From the IMG/VR virus record IMGVR_UViG_3300027736_000105, positions 1 to 38,104 of that record: a stretch of DNA of 38,104 bases, one strand, 5' to 3'. Below the pieces are notes generated by a model. The model saw only the letters and a list, made by a program, of their open reading frames with translations. It ran no database searches and had not been told where the DNA came from. This document shows positions 4,727-35,765 of the stretch, piece by piece; position 1 is the first letter of the stretch; every line of letters begins with the position of its first letter. The position numbers and the translations under genes are program-made. The DNA comes from a virus.

Positions 4727-4929
4727 TATATTTTCTCCGCAGTTTCATGTGCTTTCAAAAGACCTTTTAGGCGTTCAATCTCTTTATCGCGTTCTTCAAG
4801 CTTGCGCATAAGGCTATCATTCATATCCGCCCACATTGCAATCTGTTCCATGCGTTCTTTGTGGTCTCTGTGCATAAGCTCAAACATGCGTTCAGAAGCA
4901 TCAAGTTGTTTTTGAATGAAGGAAATCAT
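4726..4929 (-). CDS. small coiled-coil protein, 67 aa
   Basis: Almost the whole 67-residue protein is predicted helix with heptad spacing (FELMHRDHKERMEQI, LMRKLEERDKEIERLKGLLKAH), so it is probably a coiled coil. It has an ATGA overlap with the gene before and a TAATG overlap with the gene after. No family is recognised. It may be a virion spacer or an assembly helper. Confidence 0.75.
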   Translation of the reverse strand: MISFIQKQLDASERMFELMHRDHKERMEQIAMWADMNDSLMRKLEERDKEIERLKGLLKAHETAEKI

Positions 4930-15657: not shown

Positions 15658-17190
15658 TTAGTAGTACGCCGCAGTTCGGCTTTTAAAAAATCGTGGTTCA
15701 TCTGGCTCATCCGTGTCTAGCGTGATGAAGCCGCCTTGTCTGAATCGAAGCAGTGCTTGGCTGGTCGTGTCCACAAAGTCATCGTGTTCGCCAACGGGGA
15801 AGGCCGCAACCTCCTCAATGACTTCACGCGCCCAGCGTGTGTCAGGTGCCCACACCATGCCCGAAGAGAACAGGTCAGCAATAGCCTGTACACGCACCAT
15901 CTTATCGTTTCCACGGCTCGGTGTAAATTCTTGTACAGGGATGCCCATCGCCCTGAGTTCTTGGATTAACGGGCCACCAGCCGCCTTTTTCTCCACAATG
16001 AAGGCATCGGGTTGCCATTCTTTCCAGTGCTTGAAAGCGTACTGTTTGAGTTCGGGGAAGGCGATTCGGTCTTTGAAAGCGTCAAGGAGAATAAGCTGGG
16101 GCTTATCATTTTCTTCCTCGTTGTACCAGACCCCCCAAGTAGTACAGGCAGAATAGTCGGATGTGGTTTTGGTTTCATGCGCCGTGTCCCAAGACTGAAT
16201 TATGTACTCGCAAGTGGGTGGGTCGTCACTGGGCCATATCCTCCAGTGCTTCCTTGAAATGATAGCCGCTGTGTCTGAGGTCGGCTGCTGCATGTACTGC
16301 GCGTTCCAATAGCGGGGGTCCATTGAGGACTTGGCGGACTTCAGCGCTTCCAGTGGCCACTGCTCCGGCCAGAGGGACTTCTCGTTGTCCGTGTCTTCGT
16401 TCAAGATGGCGGGAAGCTCTACTATCTCCCAGCGCGGGCTGTCTGGATTACTTACCTGATACTGTATGAGTCGGCCAGTCAAGTCCAGTGGCCCCCAGCG
16501 CGTCATGATTACTATGATCGCTCCGCCCGGCATGAGACGCTGCAACGGGCCAGTTTGAAACCAACTCCACGCCGTGTCAAACGCTAGACGACTGTTTGCT
16601 TTTACATCTTGTTCTGAGTGTGGGTCATCAATAACGAACAGGTCAGCACCGCGACCGGCAAGAGCGCCACCAACACCAGCAGCGTAATACTGGCCCCCAG
16701 CAGTAGTACTCCACTTTCCAGCAGCCTTTTGGTCATCTGCAACAATTGTTTTGGAAAAAAGCTCATGGTATTGCTCATCATCAAGTAAGTTACGAACCCG
16801 CCGACCAAAGTCTTCAGACAGCGACGCAGTGTGCGTGCCCATGATAATTTTCTTGTCAGGGTAATTACCTAGGAAGAACGCGGGGAACAGGTAGCTGGAA
16901 AACTCAGACTTACCCATACGTGGCGCAATGTTGATGATGACGCGCTTCTTCTTGCCTTCAATCACATCTTGGAATATCTTGGCCAGCTTCCTGTGGTGTG
17001 GCCCTACCTTGAATCCGGGGTAGACGTACTTGGAAAACTCGATCATGTTAGTGCGCGCTGACCTAATTGTCTTGAAGCCTTCTGATCTGTCCAACATGTC
17101 CAACGTCTCTAATTTCTCTCGTGGACTCATCAACGGCAGCTTGGCATAAAGCGCTGTGGCTTCTTGCTGGGTAAGTATGTGCTCACTCAT
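15658..17190 (-). CDS. terminase large subunit, 510 aa
   Basis: ATG 17190 (MSEHILTQQEATALYAKLPL) overlaps the stop of the upstream gene by 8 bp. The frame continues upstream for 27 codons with no ribosome site, so that extension is not used. The ATPase domain has Walker A APRMGKSE (Lys94) and Walker B DLFVIDDPHS (Asp188, Asp189), with IVIMTRWGPLDLTGRL as coupling motif. The nuclease domain has YIIQSWDTAHETK, DAFIVEKKAAGGPL and HDDFVDTTSQAL acidic residues. It packages DNA through the portal. Length and motif order are normal. Confidence 0.93.
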   Translation of the reverse strand: MSEHILTQQEATALYAKLPLMSPREKLETLDMLDRSEGFKTIRSARTNMIEFSKYVYPGFKVGPHHRKLAKIFQDVIEGKKKRVIINIAPRMGKSEFSSYLFPAFFLGNYPDKKIIMGTHTASLSEDFGRRVRNLLDDEQYHELFSKTIVADDQKAAGKWSTTAGGQYYAAGVGGALAGRGADLFVIDDPHSEQDVKANSRLAFDTAWSWFQTGPLQRLMPGGAIIVIMTRWGPLDLTGRLIQYQVSNPDSPRWEIVELPAILNEDTDNEKSLWPEQWPLEALKSAKSSMDPRYWNAQYMQQPTSDTAAIISRKHWRIWPSDDPPTCEYIIQSWDTAHETKTTSDYSACTTWGVWYNEEENDKPQLILLDAFKDRIAFPELKQYAFKHWKEWQPDAFIVEKKAAGGPLIQELRAMGIPVQEFTPSRGNDKMVRVQAIADLFSSGMVWAPDTRWAREVIEEVAAFPVGEHDDFVDTTSQALLRFRQGGFITLDTDEPDEPRFFKSRTAAYY

Positions 17191-17797
17191 CTTTATTTTC
17201 GGCTTCGTTTTCGACAGGTTCTTGCGGTGTGTTGATTTCTTCAATGTCTGTGTACTCAGCGTCGGACACATTCATGAACTTGGCCAGCTTTTCTTTGAGC
17301 TTCTTGTCGATCTCTTCTTCTGTCATGTCAAGTTTCTTGACCTCAATCTTGTCGGTGAATAGTCCGACTTCTGTGACTTTACCCAACAATCCCAACGCTT
17401 TTAGTCGGATATTGGCGCTGGGGTTTTTGCATTCTTCCAACAGTTGAGCTACGGCATAGCCACGAAGCTCCTTGGCCTGATGGACAAACTCCCAGTCATA
17501 AGCAGTAAGCATCCCTACTAAATGTTGCACCGCAGCAGGTGTTTTGATCTGGGACAGATGTTCGTGCGTGATTTCGCTTGGGGCGGCAGAGACTAGGTTG
17601 GTGAACGCGCCCCGCGCTGCTTTGACTTCTGCTTGGCTGACCACGGTATCTGTGTCTGCGGCTCCAAGACTCTTAAGCCAGTCTGTTGTTTTTACTTGAG
17701 CGTCGATCCTGTCTGCCGGATGTTCTTTTTCAAGCGGCGTAGGTTTACCCCAGTGGTCAACCACTTCGGGTTCAAAATCAATCAAGTGTTCTAGCAT
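17183..17797 (-). CDS. terminase small subunit (putative), 204 aa
   Basis: First gene of the leftward arm. Residues 1-60 are mixed. The central part is helical (VQHLVGMLTAYDWEFVHQAK), followed by NIRLKALGLLGKVTEVGLFT, DKIEVKKLDMTEEEIDKKLK and an acidic tail. The segment LKALGLLGKVTEVGLFTDKIEV resembles the oligomerisation and C-terminal part of small terminases. Position immediately before the large subunit supports the call. ATG 17797 has no clear Shine-Dalgarno sequence, so the leader is short or initiation is weak, consistent with low stoichiometry. Confidence 0.72.
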   Translation of the reverse strand: MLEHLIDFEPEVVDHWGKPTPLEKEHPADRIDAQVKTTDWLKSLGAADTDTVVSQAEVKAARGAFTNLVSAAPSEITHEHLSQIKTPAAVQHLVGMLTAYDWEFVHQAKELRGYAVAQLLEECKNPSANIRLKALGLLGKVTEVGLFTDKIEVKKLDMTEEEIDKKLKEKLAKFMNVSDAEYTDIEEINTPQEPVENEAENKDE

Positions 17798-17812: not shown

Positions 17813-17841
17813 TTGTACCTGCGATGCGCGGAGTGTATACT
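17813..17841 (+). promoter_or_regulatory. candidate rightward promoter for the small RNA
   Basis: A -35-like TTGTAC (17813-17818) and a good -10 TATACT (17836-17841) are 17 bases apart. RNA would start near 17848. The -10 overlaps that of the leftward terminase promoter through the palindrome GTATAC. Confidence 0.45.
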
Positions 17842-17862
17842 ATTTCTTAAGTGATGTGGCAA
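17834..17862 (-). promoter_or_regulatory. leftward promoter of the terminase/head operon
   Basis: On the minus strand, -35 TTGCCA (17857-17862) and -10 TATACA (17834-17839) are separated by exactly 17 bases, about 30 bases before the first structural gene. Its -10 overlaps the -10 of the rightward promoter, so the two may compete. Confidence 0.6.
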
Positions 17863-17977
17863 GTCGCCCAATTGGTCTTTGACCAACGGCTACAGCAGTT
17901 GCCCGTTGCTTCTCCTCGGTTGGATAGATACTCCGCCGTTTCACCCCCTGATTGCAAAGTCAGGGGGTTTTTTTTTT
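17848..17977 (+). ncRNA. candidate phage small RNA with anti-Shine-Dalgarno seed
   Basis: About 130 nt with no plausible reading frame. It starts after a promoter-like sequence and ends in a strong terminator with ten T residues. The 5' part folds into TTGGTC/GACCAA (17872-17886) or the alternative CAACGG/CCGTTG (17884-17908). Then comes an apparently unpaired stretch containing GTTGCTTCTCCTCGGTTG (17905-17922). TCTCCTCGGTTG is complementary over 12 nt to the ribosome site of the Cys-rich gene (22431-22442). GTTGCTTCTCC is complementary over 11 nt to that of the SNF2 helicase (32447-32457). There is no rightward gene upstream whose mRNA this terminator would end. Existence and function are inferred. 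Confidence 0.5.
17944..17977 (+). terminator. very strong rightward intrinsic terminator
   Basis: An 8-bp stem CCCCCTGA/TCAGGGGG (17944-17951 with 17960-17967) and an 8-nt loop are followed by ten consecutive T residues (17968-17977). The T-run is on the plus strand only. Confidence 0.92.
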
Positions 17978-18030: not shown

Positions 18031-18046
18031 TGTCCAACGGTTGACA
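18031..18046. promoter_or_regulatory. operator copy 1, TGTC-N8-GACA dyad
   Basis: The sequence TGTCCAACGGTTGACA is one of three sites sharing TGTCYAACNNTWGACA (others at 26148 and 34052). Its right half is also the perfect -35 hexamer of the rightward promoter at 18041, so a bound protein would compete with RNA polymerase. Confidence 0.6.
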
Positions 18047-22392: not shown

Positions 22393-22447
22393 TCAACGGG
22401 TTAGTGGTGTGCCCACTCACACCACATTCGCAACCGAGGAGATTATG

Positions 22448-26147: not shown

Positions 26148-26163
26148 TGTCTAACACTTGACA
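26148..26163. promoter_or_regulatory. operator copy 2, TGTC-N8-GACA dyad, with promoter -35
   Basis: TGTCTAACACTTGACA matches the other two operator copies. Its right end is a perfect TTGACA; 17 bases later is TACATT (26181-26186), a weak -10. The site lies directly upstream of the winged-helix gene at 26207. Confidence 0.6.
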
Positions 26164-26206: not shown

Positions 26207-26707
26207 ATGACAGACATCAAAACTGCACTGAGTGGAATACTCAGCGAATGGGAATTAGATAATCAACAACAGGAGAAGCAAGTGCAAACAACACAAGAGA
26301 AACCATATTTCAGCATCACCAACAACGTGACACGCGCAACATTTGAGTACATCAAAGCCAACCCAGTGTCAGCATCGGGGGATGTGGTTAGGGCATTAGA
26401 GCAGCGAGGGTACAAGCCGTCTTCTATTGGCTCACTGCTCACGCAGTTTATTAAGAAGGGTTTGTGTACAAGAGACGCACAGAACCGATACTCGGTGGCG
26501 GTGTCTGAGTATGTGCCTATGAAAGCAAACAAGCAGGTCAAGCAAGTCATACAGAAAGCCAAAGCTACACGAGGCGAGGGCATTGCCGCGCTCAGTCCGC
26601 AGCCTACGGTGAAGCTGGTGTGGGATGCCGATACAGTTATCAACAACATCGGCTTGAAGCAGGCACACGCCCTGTATGTAGAGCTTGGCAAATACTTCGG
26701 AGGCTGA
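26207..26707 (+). CDS. winged-helix DNA-binding protein (putative regulator), 166 aa
   Basis: The N-terminal 40 residues are Gln-rich and probably disordered. Residues about 42-95 form a winged helix: VTRATFEYIKANPVSASGDV, VRALEQRGYKPSSIGSLLTQ, FIKKGLCTRDAQNRYSV. A basic linker (KANKQVKQVIQKAKATRGEG) and a C-terminal segment with a TVINNIGLKQAHALYVELGK helix follow. The gene has a good ribosome site and lies just downstream of an operator copy, so it may autoregulate through the TGTC-N8-GACA sites. It could also be a structural DNA-binding or antirepressor-type protein. Binding is inferred. Confidence 0.72.
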   Translation: MTDIKTALSGILSEWELDNQQQEKQVQTTQEKPYFSITNNVTRATFEYIKANPVSASGDVVRALEQRGYKPSSIGSLLTQFIKKGLCTRDAQNRYSVAVSEYVPMKANKQVKQVIQKAKATRGEGIAALSPQPTVKLVWDADTVINNIGLKQAHALYVELGKYFGG

Positions 26708-28784: not shown

Positions 28785-30748
28785 CGAAACCATTTGACAG
28801 GATACTGACCATCGACTTTGAAACTCGGTGGGACAAGCGTGACTACACGCTATCCAAAATGACAACTGAGGAGTACATACGTGATAAAAGGTTCATATGT
28901 TTCGGCGCTTGTGTCCATGAGTACGGAAGCAGCGATGACATTAGGTGGGTTGGAGGAGATGAGCTACCTGAATTCTTTTCGGGAATCGACTGGGGACGAA
29001 CCGCTGTGCTTGCGCATAACGCACAGTTCGATGTATCCATCCTTGAGTGGGTCTACGATTCTCACCCAGCCTTTATATTCGACACACTATCAATGGGACG
29101 CGCTCTTCGAGGCGTGGAAGTGGGGAACAGTCTTGCGAAGCTGGCGCTCGACTTCGGACTTCAGCCTAAAGGAACGGCTGTCAACAGCACAGATGGCCTC
29201 ACATCAATATCGCCTGAGATTGAAAGAGAACTTGCCGAGTACTGCACCCATGATGTGTACCTGTGTGAAGAGATTTTCAAGCGATTCGTTGTTGGATATC
29301 CAAAATCCGAATTGCGTTTGATCGACATGACGCTCAAGATGTACACACGACCGTACCTTGAGCTTGACCACAAGATGCTGATACAAGCACTGACAGAAGA
29401 AGGAGAAGCTCGTGAAGGTTTATTACAGAGACTCGGCATACAAGAAGTTGAGCTTGCGTCGAACCCGAAGTTTGCAAACATACTTCAAAGCCTCGGGGTT
29501 GTTGCCCCGACTAAGGTTAGTAAAACTACCGGCAAAGAGACCCTTGCTCTTGCGAAGAATGATGCCCTCTTCCAAGCGCTGCTCAACGGTGAACGTGAAG
29601 ATGTTGCCCTCCTTTGTGAAGCACGCCTTAAAGTTAAATCAACAACAGAACGTACAAGGGCGCAACGCTTCCTTGATATTAGCCAGCGCGGTAAATTACC
29701 GGTTCCTCTTTCGTACTATGGTGCGCTCTCAGGTCGCTGGACGGCGGCAAAGGGAAGCGCAATCAACATGCAAAACCTCAAGCGAGGTAGTTTCCTACGC
29801 AAAGCAATTATGGCTCCCGAAGGGTACAGTTTGGTCGTCGGCGACCTCTCACAAATTGAACCGCGAGTACTCGCGTGGCTTTCGGATTACCATGAGATGC
29901 TTGACATCTTCAGGTCAGGTGGTGACCCTTACGCGGCGTTCGGAGCGCAGATGTTTAACATACCCGGACTTACTAAGGACTCGCATCCCGACCTCCGGCA
30001 GTCTGCGAAAAGTGCGCTCTTGGGTTGCGGGTATGGTCTCGGTTGGGCATCGTTCGCGGCCCAGCTTCTTGTGGGGTTCCTTGGTGCGCCGCCAGTCCGT
30101 TATGAAAAAGCCTTTGCCAAGACGCTAGGTGTAGATCAGGAGTACGCGCAGCGGTTCATTGACTGGGAAGACAACGTGACCAAGATGCTGGAGATTCCCC
30201 ACACCTGCACCGACCAAGAGCTACTGACCCACTGCCTTGCTGCCAAGAAGATCATTGACATCTACCGCGCCACTGCACACCCCGTGGCTACCTTTTGGGA
30301 TATGTGTTCCGGCCTGATTGAGTCCAGCTTATACGGCGGTAAGGTGTACAAGTACAAGTGTTTGACATTCAGCAAGGAACGTATAGAATTGCCAAACGGG
30401 ATGAGCTTGCTCTACCCGCAGTTGCGACGCGAGAAAGATGATAAAGGTAGGAGCCAGTGGGTATACGGGCCAAACGCTACCAAGCTGTATGCAGGGAAAG
30501 TGACGAACAACGTAACACAGGCTGTTGCGCGTATCGTCATGACTGATGGAATGTTGCGGGTAACGAAGAAGTACCCCGTGGTTGGTACTGTGCATGATGA
30601 ACAGATCGTGTTAGTACCGGATGAAGAAGTTGCTGCTGCTAAGACTTGGGTCTTGGAGCAGATGACTATGGAGCCAAGTTATATGCAGGGGATACCCCTC
30701 GCCGCTGACGGTGGTGCGCACCGTAGATATGGAGAAGCAAAACAATGA
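28781..30748 (+). CDS. family A DNA polymerase with 3'-5' exonuclease, 655 aa
   Basis: The start is TTG 28781 behind a full AGGAGG, overlapping the previous stop. The DEDDy exonuclease domain is complete: TIDFET (Asp12, Glu14), NAQFD (Asn80-Asp84), YCTHD (Tyr154-Asp158). The polymerase domain has SGRW (about 317-320), motif A VVGDLSQIEPR (Asp355), motif B RQSAKSALLGCGYG (Arg406, Lys410, Tyr418) and motif C VHDE (His605-Glu607). No N-terminal 5'-3' nuclease is present, as usual for phages. It is the replicative polymerase. The next gene overlaps it by ATGA. Confidence 0.95.
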   Translation: MTKPFDRILTIDFETRWDKRDYTLSKMTTEEYIRDKRFICFGACVHEYGSSDDIRWVGGDELPEFFSGIDWGRTAVLAHNAQFDVSILEWVYDSHPAFIFDTLSMGRALRGVEVGNSLAKLALDFGLQPKGTAVNSTDGLTSISPEIERELAEYCTHDVYLCEEIFKRFVVGYPKSELRLIDMTLKMYTRPYLELDHKMLIQALTEEGEAREGLLQRLGIQEVELASNPKFANILQSLGVVAPTKVSKTTGKETLALAKNDALFQALLNGEREDVALLCEARLKVKSTTERTRAQRFLDISQRGKLPVPLSYYGALSGRWTAAKGSAINMQNLKRGSFLRKAIMAPEGYSLVVGDLSQIEPRVLAWLSDYHEMLDIFRSGGDPYAAFGAQMFNIPGLTKDSHPDLRQSAKSALLGCGYGLGWASFAAQLLVGFLGAPPVRYEKAFAKTLGVDQEYAQRFIDWEDNVTKMLEIPHTCTDQELLTHCLAAKKIIDIYRATAHPVATFWDMCSGLIESSLYGGKVYKYKCLTFSKERIELPNGMSLLYPQLRREKDDKGRSQWVYGPNATKLYAGKVTNNVTQAVARIVMTDGMLRVTKKYPVVGTVHDEQIVLVPDEEVAAAKTWVLEQMTMEPSYMQGIPLAADGGAHRRYGEAKQ

Positions 30749-32440: not shown

Positions 32441-32457
32441 AACAACGGAGAAGCAAC

Positions 32458-34017
32458 TTGGAAATCCTTGAAGACAAGGCATTAATATTTAGAACTAGAA
32501 ACCCCGAAAAGTACAGCATCATTCCTAAACACAAAGTCATTGAACGTGATGACGGTGGGTACGATGTCGCTGTCTATTGGGGACTAGACGAATGTAGGGT
32601 GCTACGCAACCTCGGCGTAAAAGATGTGCCCTCGCCAATCACACGCAAGTACAAGTGGCCCGGTCGTTACAAACCTATGGCGCATCAGGTGGATACTGCA
32701 GCGTTCTTAACCATGCACCGCAAAGCGTTTGTGTTCTCCGAACCCGGCACAGGCAAGACATTATCCGCACTGTGGGCGGCTGACTATCTGATGCAACGCG
32801 GTGAAGTGCGTAGGTGTTTGGTGTTGTGTCCCTTGTCCATCATGCAGTCTGCATGGCTGGCTGACTTAAGTAACAGCATCATCCATCGCTCTGCCGTTGT
32901 CGCACACCACTCGCAGGCTAGTCGCCGCATCGAGATGATTCAACAAGACTACGAGTTCGTCATTACCAACTACGACGGCTTGAACTTGATAGCCGATGAG
33001 ATCAACGCTGATGGGCGATTCGACTTAGTTATTGTTGATGAAGCTAACGCATACAAGACAGTGACAACGCGGAGATGGAAGTCGTTGAAGTCAATCATTA
33101 AACCCAACACACACGTATGGATGATGACCGGCACACCTGCATCACAGTCACCAGCAGATGCCTACGGCTTGGCCAAGATAGTTAACCCCGAGGGCGTACC
33201 CAGCTTCTTTACATCGTGGCGCGATAAGGTGATGAACAAGGTCACGCTTTACAAGTGGGCGGCAAAAGCAAACGCTGCTGATCTGGTGCATGAAGCCCTG
33301 CAACCTGCCATACGGTTCAGTAAAGCGCAGTGCCTTGATTTACCACCAGTACTGACTACCACACGCGAAGTACCACTCACGCCACAGCAAGCCAAGTACT
33401 ACAACCTACTCAAAGACCGGATGCTGGTGCAAGCCGCAGGCGAGACGATCAGCGCAGTCAACGCTGCCGCTGGTGTATCCAAGCTGTTACAGATAAGTTG
33501 TGGCGCTGTATATACCGACGATAAAGAGGTGGTTGAGTTCGATGCTGCCCCACGCCTTGGCGTGTTGGAAGAAATCTTAGAAGAGACTTCGCGCAAGGTA
33601 ATTATCTTTGCGTTATTCAGATCAAGCATTGATACGATTCAAGCGCACCTGACCAAGAAAAACATTGCCAACGAATGTATCCACGGTGGGATTACGCCCA
33701 TCAAACGGTCGGATATCATCCACCGCTTTCAACACGAGCAAGACCCTCGCGTGTTGGTAATGCAACCGCAGGCTACTGCGCACGGCATCACGTTGACTGC
33801 TGCGGACACGGTAGTGTTCTTTGGCCCACTGATGAGCGTGGAGCAATATATTCAGTGCATTGCACGGGCTGACCGCAAGGGTCAGAACTCCGACAAGGTG
33901 ACTGTCATACACATTCAAGGCTCACCCATTGAGCGCAAGATGTTCAAAGCATTGGAGGGAAAGGTAAGTGATAACTCACTTCTTACCCAAATGTTCGAGA
34001 TAGAAATAAATTCATGA
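32458..34017 (+). CDS. SNF2-type DNA helicase/translocase, 519 aa
   Basis: The start is TTG 32458 behind CGGAGAAGCAAC. Motifs are: Q/I region KPMAHQVDTAAFL, Walker A FSEPGTGKTL (Lys100), Ia LVLCPLSIMQSAW, motif II IVDEANAYK (Asp194-Asn197, DEAN instead of DEAH), III WMMTGTPAS, and in the second lobe HGGITPIKRSDIIHRF, TLTAADTVVFFGP and motif VI YIQCIARADRKGQ. This is a superfamily 2 SNF2-like ATPase of phage size. It translocates on double-stranded DNA and probably remodels forks or recombination intermediates. The ribosome site is complementary over 11 nt to the candidate small RNA. Confidence 0.9.
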   Translation: MEILEDKALIFRTRNPEKYSIIPKHKVIERDDGGYDVAVYWGLDECRVLRNLGVKDVPSPITRKYKWPGRYKPMAHQVDTAAFLTMHRKAFVFSEPGTGKTLSALWAADYLMQRGEVRRCLVLCPLSIMQSAWLADLSNSIIHRSAVVAHHSQASRRIEMIQQDYEFVITNYDGLNLIADEINADGRFDLVIVDEANAYKTVTTRRWKSLKSIIKPNTHVWMMTGTPASQSPADAYGLAKIVNPEGVPSFFTSWRDKVMNKVTLYKWAAKANAADLVHEALQPAIRFSKAQCLDLPPVLTTTREVPLTPQQAKYYNLLKDRMLVQAAGETISAVNAAAGVSKLLQISCGAVYTDDKEVVEFDAAPRLGVLEEILEETSRKVIIFALFRSSIDTIQAHLTKKNIANECIHGGITPIKRSDIIHRFQHEQDPRVLVMQPQATAHGITLTAADTVVFFGPLMSVEQYIQCIARADRKGQNSDKVTVIHIQGSPIERKMFKALEGKVSDNSLLTQMFEIEINS

Positions 34018-34024
34018 AAGGGGG

Positions 34025-34052
34025 TTGCAAACCAAACGCAAACGTGTAAACT
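34025..34052 (+). promoter_or_regulatory. candidate rightward promoter upstream of operator copy 3
   Basis: TTGCAA (34025-34030) and TAAACT (34047-34052) are separated by 16 bases. The operator dyad starts at the last base of the -10, so bound protein would block initiation. Confidence 0.4.
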
Positions 34053-34067
34053 GTCCAACCTTAGACA
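34052..34067. promoter_or_regulatory. operator copy 3, TGTC-N8-GACA dyad
   Basis: TGTCCAACCTTAGACA matches the consensus of the copies at 18031 and 26148. It lies in the only non-coding gap (34018-34084) between the helicase and the following gene. Confidence 0.6.
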
Positions 34068-35486: not shown

Positions 35487-35765
35487 ATGGCCTACTCACA
35501 AAAAACAATCGACGCGATCATGCGTGCCCCAAAGACTCAAGGCAATCAGCTTGGGCGGTGGGCGGCGCATCACAACTTTTCAGTTGTTCGCATTTCAAAA
35601 GCGTTGGGTGTGTCAAGACAGACTGTGTACAACTGGTTCGAGGGCGGCGACATTTTTCCTGCCTATGAACACCGCGTTGAAACACTTCTCAAATTTCTAC
35701 AACAATCACACTCAGCAGACGAAGCATGGAGAAAAATATGTCAGCATTACAACCTCGTACCTTAA
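35487..35765 (+). CDS. Cro/XRE-like helix-turn-helix protein, 92 aa
   Basis: The HTH is clear in FSVVRISKALGVSRQTVYNW, with FEGGDIFPAYEHRVETLLKF completing the five-helix repressor-like domain. A C-terminal helix (SADEAWRKICQHYNLV) follows. The N-terminus has TQGNQLGRWAAHHNF. It is a compact DNA-binding protein and a second candidate for the protein that reads the TGTC-N8-GACA operators. Its translation depends on the hairpin-spaced ribosome site. Confidence 0.8.
   Translation: MAYSQKTIDAIMRAPKTQGNQLGRWAAHHNFSVVRISKALGVSRQTVYNWFEGGDIFPAYEHRVETLLKFLQQSHSADEAWRKICQHYNLVP

Follow-up and report, generated by a model that had tools for sequence, protein, structure and literature searches.

CU-rich small RNAs (sRNAs) that block ribosome-binding sites (RBSs) are known in Betaproteobacteria and Neisseria (PMC5688073). 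The families RF02278 (betaproteobacterial toxic small RNA) and RF02837 (anti-hemB) combine two or three hairpins with an unpaired CU-rich stretch (CUCCU) and an intrinsic terminator, and the Neisseria NmsR sRNAs carry unpaired CU-rich stretches complementary to the RBS regions of several mRNAs (PMC5688073). Phages encode pairing RNAs as well: the c4 RNA of P1/P7 acts as antisense to a phage mRNA, whose RBS it blocks, and lambda OOP and P22 sar are short RNAs that regulate phage genes through pairing (PMC12197685). The candidate phage sRNA described here shares these traits and nevertheless departs from each of the systems. RF02278 and RF02837 are chromosomal, have no equivalent of its hairpin 1 in the same place and have no coevolving phage regulon, while the NmsR sRNAs have bacterial TCA-cycle targets and occur as tandem genes. 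The c4 RNA serves immunity control through one target, ant, and OOP and sar are each antisense to a single target, whereas the present element is a single-gene RNA with its own promoter that would act in trans on many distant early genes via a short seed. What would be new here is a phage sRNA with an early-gene regulon, CU-rich sRNAs and single-target phage antisense RNAs being already known; no report of this phage sRNA was found in the open-access literature searched.

The element was analyzed within the window, the whole 38,104-nucleotide (nt) stretch of the IMG/VR virus record IMGVR_UViG_3300027736_000105. At the gathering score, Rfam 15 yielded no matches in the window. Membership was rejected for RF02278 (21.7 bits against a gathering cut-off of 50) and RF02837 (21.8 bits against 49.5), and NmsRb (RF02877) reached 18.8 bits against a cut-off of 52. 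We regard it as highly probable that positions 17848-17977 encode a trans-acting, multi-target phage sRNA of about 130 nt that blocks RBSs and thereby lowers early-gene translation at the early/late switch. The initial annotation had already proposed a rightward phage sRNA with an anti-Shine-Dalgarno (anti-SD) seed aimed at right-arm genes, and this proposal gained support from conservation, covarying helices, arm-specific RBS complementarity and coevolution of seed and targets. The features of the locus are as follows.

17183-17797, minus strand: first gene of the left (structural) arm, from the ORF list, immediately upstream of the terminase large subunit; anchor for all relatives
17813-17818, plus strand: −35 element of the sRNA promoter, TTGTAC; in 174/174 loci a TTG lies 17 nt (171 loci) or 18 nt (3 loci) from the −10 element
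17836-17841, plus strand: −10 element of the sRNA promoter, TATACT; TAnACT in 174/174 loci
17848-17977, plus strand: candidate sRNA gene, predicted to start at about 17848 and to end in the T run; covariance-model match 17848-17973, E value of 4e-12; kept in 174 loci
17849-17911, plus strand: hairpin 1, from single folds; covariation helix 1, 91% of cells paired, 4 pairs changed on both sides
17905-17922, plus strand: seed, GTTGCTTCTCCTCGGTTG; CTTCTC is near-invariant in alignment A1, and CTCCT at 17912-17916 is the open toehold
17917-17938, plus strand: hairpin 2; 6 of 6 pairs changed on both sides in the covariation analysis
17943-17977, plus strand: intrinsic terminator, an 11-bp stem followed by ten T; covariation helix 3, 95% of cells paired

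The sRNA gene sits between the leftward gene 17183-17797 and the rightward replication (right) arm. The product of the leftward gene had no match in Pfam or PHROG, and no annotated phage was found to encode this protein; by its position, the gene is likely to specify the small terminase. A nucleotide search of phage records returned just one match, 71 nt long, in a terminase. The sigma70-like promoter of the sRNA in the window (TTGTAC-17-TATACT, 17813-17841) is missed by a simple promoter scanner because its −35 element fits the consensus at only three of six positions. The promoter-like sequence noted at first for the rightward strand nevertheless recurs as the pattern TTG-17/18-TAnACT in 174/174 loci, and the ten-T terminator noted alongside it was detected in the window, as the sole terminator of the region, with a stem that covaries as helix 3. 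The 3′ tail of the sRNA is U-rich.

Relatives were collected via the protein of the neighbor gene 17183-17797, which led to several hundred viral loci; once duplicates with identical upstream sequences had been discarded, 173 non-identical loci and the window remained (174 in total). All 174 carry the promoter pattern, a seed and a terminator on the strand opposite the neighbor gene, with the seed pattern matched in 163 of them and visible variants of it in the other 11. It had been stated beforehand that the proposal would fall if relatives kept the terminator and lost the complementarity of the seed; the relatives did not refute it in this way. A first covariance model, built from 13 loci, matched all 76 sources with enough sequence, and a second one matched all 97 further sources, some of them from the same contigs; among these sources were two loci whose neighbor protein shares only 46-47% identity. 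The covariance model had no match in the nearest annotated phages, used as controls (DSL-LC04, HTVC027P, HTVC023P, Pag-Yong1 and 023Pt_psg01). A search of bacterial genomes revealed two distant loci in metagenome-assembled genomes (MAGs) of unrelated phyla, both with a related element (L354, about 4831-4910, and L355, about 4840-4918, both on the minus strand), and these two contigs are probably misbinned. In L354, TTTCTCCTTTC and ATTCTCCTCC appear to form a tandem of CU-rich anti-SD stretches.

The sRNA of the window folds at −50.7 kcal/mol (z = −4.4), and none of 200 shuffled sequences was equally stable. Twelve singly folded sequences shared a common plan consisting of a 5′ hairpin, an open linker, a short hairpin and the terminator. 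The consensus that RNAalifold derived from the raw MAFFT alignment was poor, since the sequences differ in their loop insertions and in the length of the seed, and a covariance model was used in its place. In the aligned set, 90% of the cells pair, and compensatory cells numbered 139, compared with 53.5 in shuffles (0/500 reached the observed count) and at most 62 in slid controls. Pairs changed on both sides occur in all three helices, so that covariation among relatives, which had been named as a check of the proposal, is borne out. The two strands that pair at the base of hairpin 1 differ in conservation: hardly any change is seen in the 3′ strand, which belongs to the seed, whereas the 5′ strand is variable, as would be expected if the 3′ strand doubled as a recognition sequence. 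The loop of hairpin 1 (17864-17896 in the window; also in L008, L010, L028, L062 and L022) has gained an extra nested hairpin in several lineages, with the base stem and the seed undisturbed.

The seed is mostly paired in the free RNA. The initial annotation had described a 12-nt unpaired CU-rich segment; of this, CTCCT at 17912-17916 is indeed open, with a mean unpaired probability of 0.94 over 58 sequences, whereas the remainder is paired in the window fold, GCTT (17908-17911) forming the base of hairpin 1 and CGGTTG (17917-17922) opening hairpin 2. Since only 17912-17916 is fully unpaired, contact would be made by a 5-nt toehold and flanking strands that need to invade, and not by an open segment of 12 nt.

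The same region can also be read from the other side, as an old right-arm-like RBS kept on the minus strand, either a relic or part of a small gene in the left-arm leader, with the plus-strand complementarity as its by-product. An ATG does follow the minus-strand GGAG by 3-13 nt in 65/171 loci (e.g., GGAGAAAGCAAATG), and the seed may plausibly have arisen from the antisense strand of an early RBS. Yet the window has no start codon at that place, and the open reading frames, where present, span 4-35 amino acids or enter the next gene, with sequences unrelated between lineages. This alternative, which had accompanied the original proposal, leaves the plus-strand promoter, the three covarying helices and the terminator unexplained, and we find it scarcely credible. 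A plus-strand sRNA has all of these elements, and together with its intergenic position and accessible seed (a 5-nt toehold in the window) they are those expected of a trans-acting sRNA.

The upstream region of the sRNA gene holds a second candidate promoter, which points toward the structural arm.

17832-17837, minus strand: candidate −10 element of the left-arm promoter, TACACT, pattern TAnAnT
17857-17862, minus strand: candidate −35 element of the left-arm promoter, TTGCCA

In 58 distinct promoter segments, an A at −4 and a T at −2 relative to the plus-strand −10 element are invariant, and together with that element they complete TAnAnT on the minus strand. A GCAA (TTGC on the minus strand) follows the plus-strand −10 element by 15-17 nt in 156/174 loci, and according to lineage this motif belongs to the stem or to the loop of hairpin 1. 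The left arm thus appears to have a leftward promoter that shares its −10 region with the sRNA promoter, the two starts being about 23 bp apart. Bidirectional sigma70 promoters with a symmetric −10 element likewise have two divergent starts that share the −10 region, spaced 7-25 bp apart and mostly 18 (PMC10268837), so the spacing predicted here differs from their usual value. If the promoter is shared in this way, synthesis of the sRNA starts in the late promoter region, and the sRNA gene lies outside the leftward transcript. This arrangement, read from the motifs, suggests co-expression of the sRNA with the late genes and lends some weight to the initial suggestion that the sRNA could act as the structural arm comes on.

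Perfect complements of the seed lie at three RBSs of the right arm.

22431-22442, plus strand: RBS of the Cys-rich gene, 12 nt exactly complementary to 17911-17922; the gene starts at ATG 22449 (MKTNF...)
30731-30740, plus strand: RBS of the 103-amino-acid gene after the DNA polymerase, 10 nt complementary, GGAGAAGCAA; start at 30745
32447-32457, plus strand: RBS of the SNF2-like helicase (Pfam SNF2 domain), 11 nt exactly complementary to 17905-17915; start at 32458

The 12-nt complement to the Cys-rich gene and the 11-nt complement to the SNF2 helicase had both been reported from the first reading of the DNA; each proved exact and located at an RBS. Among 38 right-arm initiation regions of the window, complementarity extended over 9 nt or more in 4 and over 11 nt or more in 2, compared with means of 0.24 and 0.02 in dinucleotide shuffles, 3 out of 1,000 of which reached each observed count. 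None of 2,767 other overlapping 95-nt windows had two 11-nt matches, windows antisense to the right arm being excluded. An 11-nt perfect seed complement was also found at 26271-26281 (plus strand), within a right-arm coding region and not at an RBS.

Across 13 genomes, with gene starts called by a home-made script favoring SD-like sites, stretches of 10 nt or more that perfectly complement the seed of the respective genome were present at 51/441 same-strand (early-arm) RBSs and at 0/491 opposite-strand RBSs. With the RNA gene excluded, such complements in these genomes numbered 51 at plus-strand RBSs, 18 elsewhere on the same strand and 4 on the other strand. Extending the count to 1,638 right-arm genes of the 174 loci gave 279 genes with at least 10 nt and 139 with at least 12 nt, whereas the reversed seed gave 7 and 1. 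Extended complementarity is scarce in seed classes c, e and f, and duplex energies are weak for class d. Each genome offers several targets and not the one dedicated target of the c4/OOP type; the pairing with the RBS of a phage mRNA that marks that type is seen here in complementarity and coevolution. Duplexes of the right-arm sites with the RNA were predicted at −10.5 and −11.4 kcal/mol, and those with the tested 16S tail sequence were weaker, at −8.1 and −8.4 kcal/mol. The two arms also differ in the motif itself, as AA directly follows GGAG at 159/288 right-arm sites but at 24/142 left-arm sites. In five related phages without the RNA, AA follows GGAG at 36/170 sites, and at 0/50 sites in one with two large arms; relatives without the RNA are also without the motif bias. 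In the right arms of L075, L076 and L324, a nearly identical start cassette, AAGGAGAAAGCAAATG, precedes many consecutive early genes, as if RBS units had been copied within the arm.

The longest complement, found in some relatives, comprises 19 nt (CCCAAGGAGAAAGCAAATG) and runs from the SD through the AUG start codon. As the pairing covers the SD sequence and extends over the start codon in many relatives, translation of the early genes should be blocked. The direction of regulation does not follow from complementarity by itself, and the sRNA might instead activate or stabilize early mRNAs, by opening an inhibitory structure or by shielding them from nucleases; pairing over the SD and often the AUG is nevertheless the classical geometry of blocking, which makes activation very improbable in our estimation.

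An sRNA with several early targets is further supported by the way in which seeds and sites have changed together. Orthologous RBSs follow changes of the seed at three separate positions. The right arms of genomes with seed GCTTCTCC contain GGAGAAGC and GGAGAAAGC 20 and 11 times, respectively, compared with 1 and 23 times in those with seed GCTTTCTCC, and among orthologous genes with either motif the counts were 18 versus 8 and 3 versus 15. At the SNF2 site, GGAGAAGC was found in 5/6 and GGAGAAGT in 1/6 cases with seed GCTTCTCC, and GGAGAAAG in 3/4 cases with seed GCTTTCTCC. The helicase site reads GGAGAAGCAAC where the seed is GTTGCTTCTCC, GGAGAAGCAT(C) where it is GATGCTTCTCC, and GGAGAAAGCA where it is TGCTTTCTCC; a change of the seed from GTTGC to GATGC is paralleled by one from GCAAC to GCATC in the site. 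Correspondingly, the site of the Cys-rich gene is AACCGAGGAG in genomes whose seed is CTCCTCGGTT but AACTGAGGAG where the seed is CTCCTCAGTT, and CTCTCTC seeds accompany GAGAGA sites in 15/105 genes, compared with 21/1455 in the two main seed classes. In permutation tests, which ignore the relatedness of the genomes, own seeds fitted the sites better than those of other lineages for the Cys-rich gene (p = 0.0001) and the SNF2 helicase (p < 0.0001), and more weakly for the 103-amino-acid and gam-like families (p = 0.02 and 0.05). GGAGAAAG is common in most lineages, and the seed-linked shift to GGAGAAG is therefore clear, among clusters defined by identity, only in the largest one and partly so in a second. 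No such shift is seen in several small clusters that have seed GCTTCTCC, G005 and G011 run against the rule, and L034 keeps the other Cys-rich site.

These data also bear on the view that the sRNA is real but mainly directed against the host, as a general anti-SD RNA that lowers host translation and matches phage mRNAs as a side effect of the shared SD. The linker UUCUCCU does complement a generic SD (AGGAGAA), similarly built betaproteobacterial CU-rich sRNAs act on chromosomal genes, and the RF02278 family inhibits growth of Escherichia coli (PMC5688073). Nevertheless, the complementarity reaches far past the SD, taking in flanks that are specific to the phages and coevolving with these, and the left-arm SDs of the same phages have no extended complementarity. 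We consider a mainly anti-host role unlikely.

Collectively, the sRNA probably silences the early genes at the level of translation once the structural genes are turned on, a reading built on conserved sequence and pairing. Rightward transcription would start from the sigma70-like promoter, whose −10 region is common to the divergent structural-arm promoter, so that the sRNA would be produced as the structural arm switches on. The CUCCU linker between the two hairpins would then serve as the toehold that lands on the GGAG of early mRNAs, after which the flanking strands GUUGCUU and CGGUUG would invade and pair with the extended RBSs (GGAGAAGC.. or CCGAGGAGA) of several right-arm replication genes. 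Several replication genes, the SNF2-like helicase among them, would be lowered together, and left-arm sites, which have no extension, would escape.

Temporal control in phages is usually attributed to promoters, sigma factors and repressors. If our reading is true, a translational early-to-late switch, coupled to the late promoter, is added in an abundant group of uncultured phages. On balance, we also lean toward a broader generalization, namely that the early mRNAs of a large phage group bear an extended RBS code (GGAGAAGC / GGAGAAAGCAAAUG) absent from late mRNAs and that a single RNA, expressed from the rear side of the late promoter, reads this code and switches off the early regulon, code and RNA coevolving lineage by lineage. 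Because seed and sites changed together several times, the lineages provide a ready-made set of pairs, some matched and some mismatched, in which sRNA specificity can be tested.

The right arm of the window further contains a palindrome, TGTCnAACnnTnGACA, in three intergenic places (18031-18046, 26148-26163 and 34052-34067). The copies at 18031 and 26148 include TTGACA, a possible −35 element, and a match to TGTC-N8-GAC follows the sRNA terminator in 117/174 loci. From its sequence, the palindrome looks like the operator of an early-arm repressor, and the small HTH protein encoded at 35487-35765 (plus strand) is a candidate for the regulator acting there.
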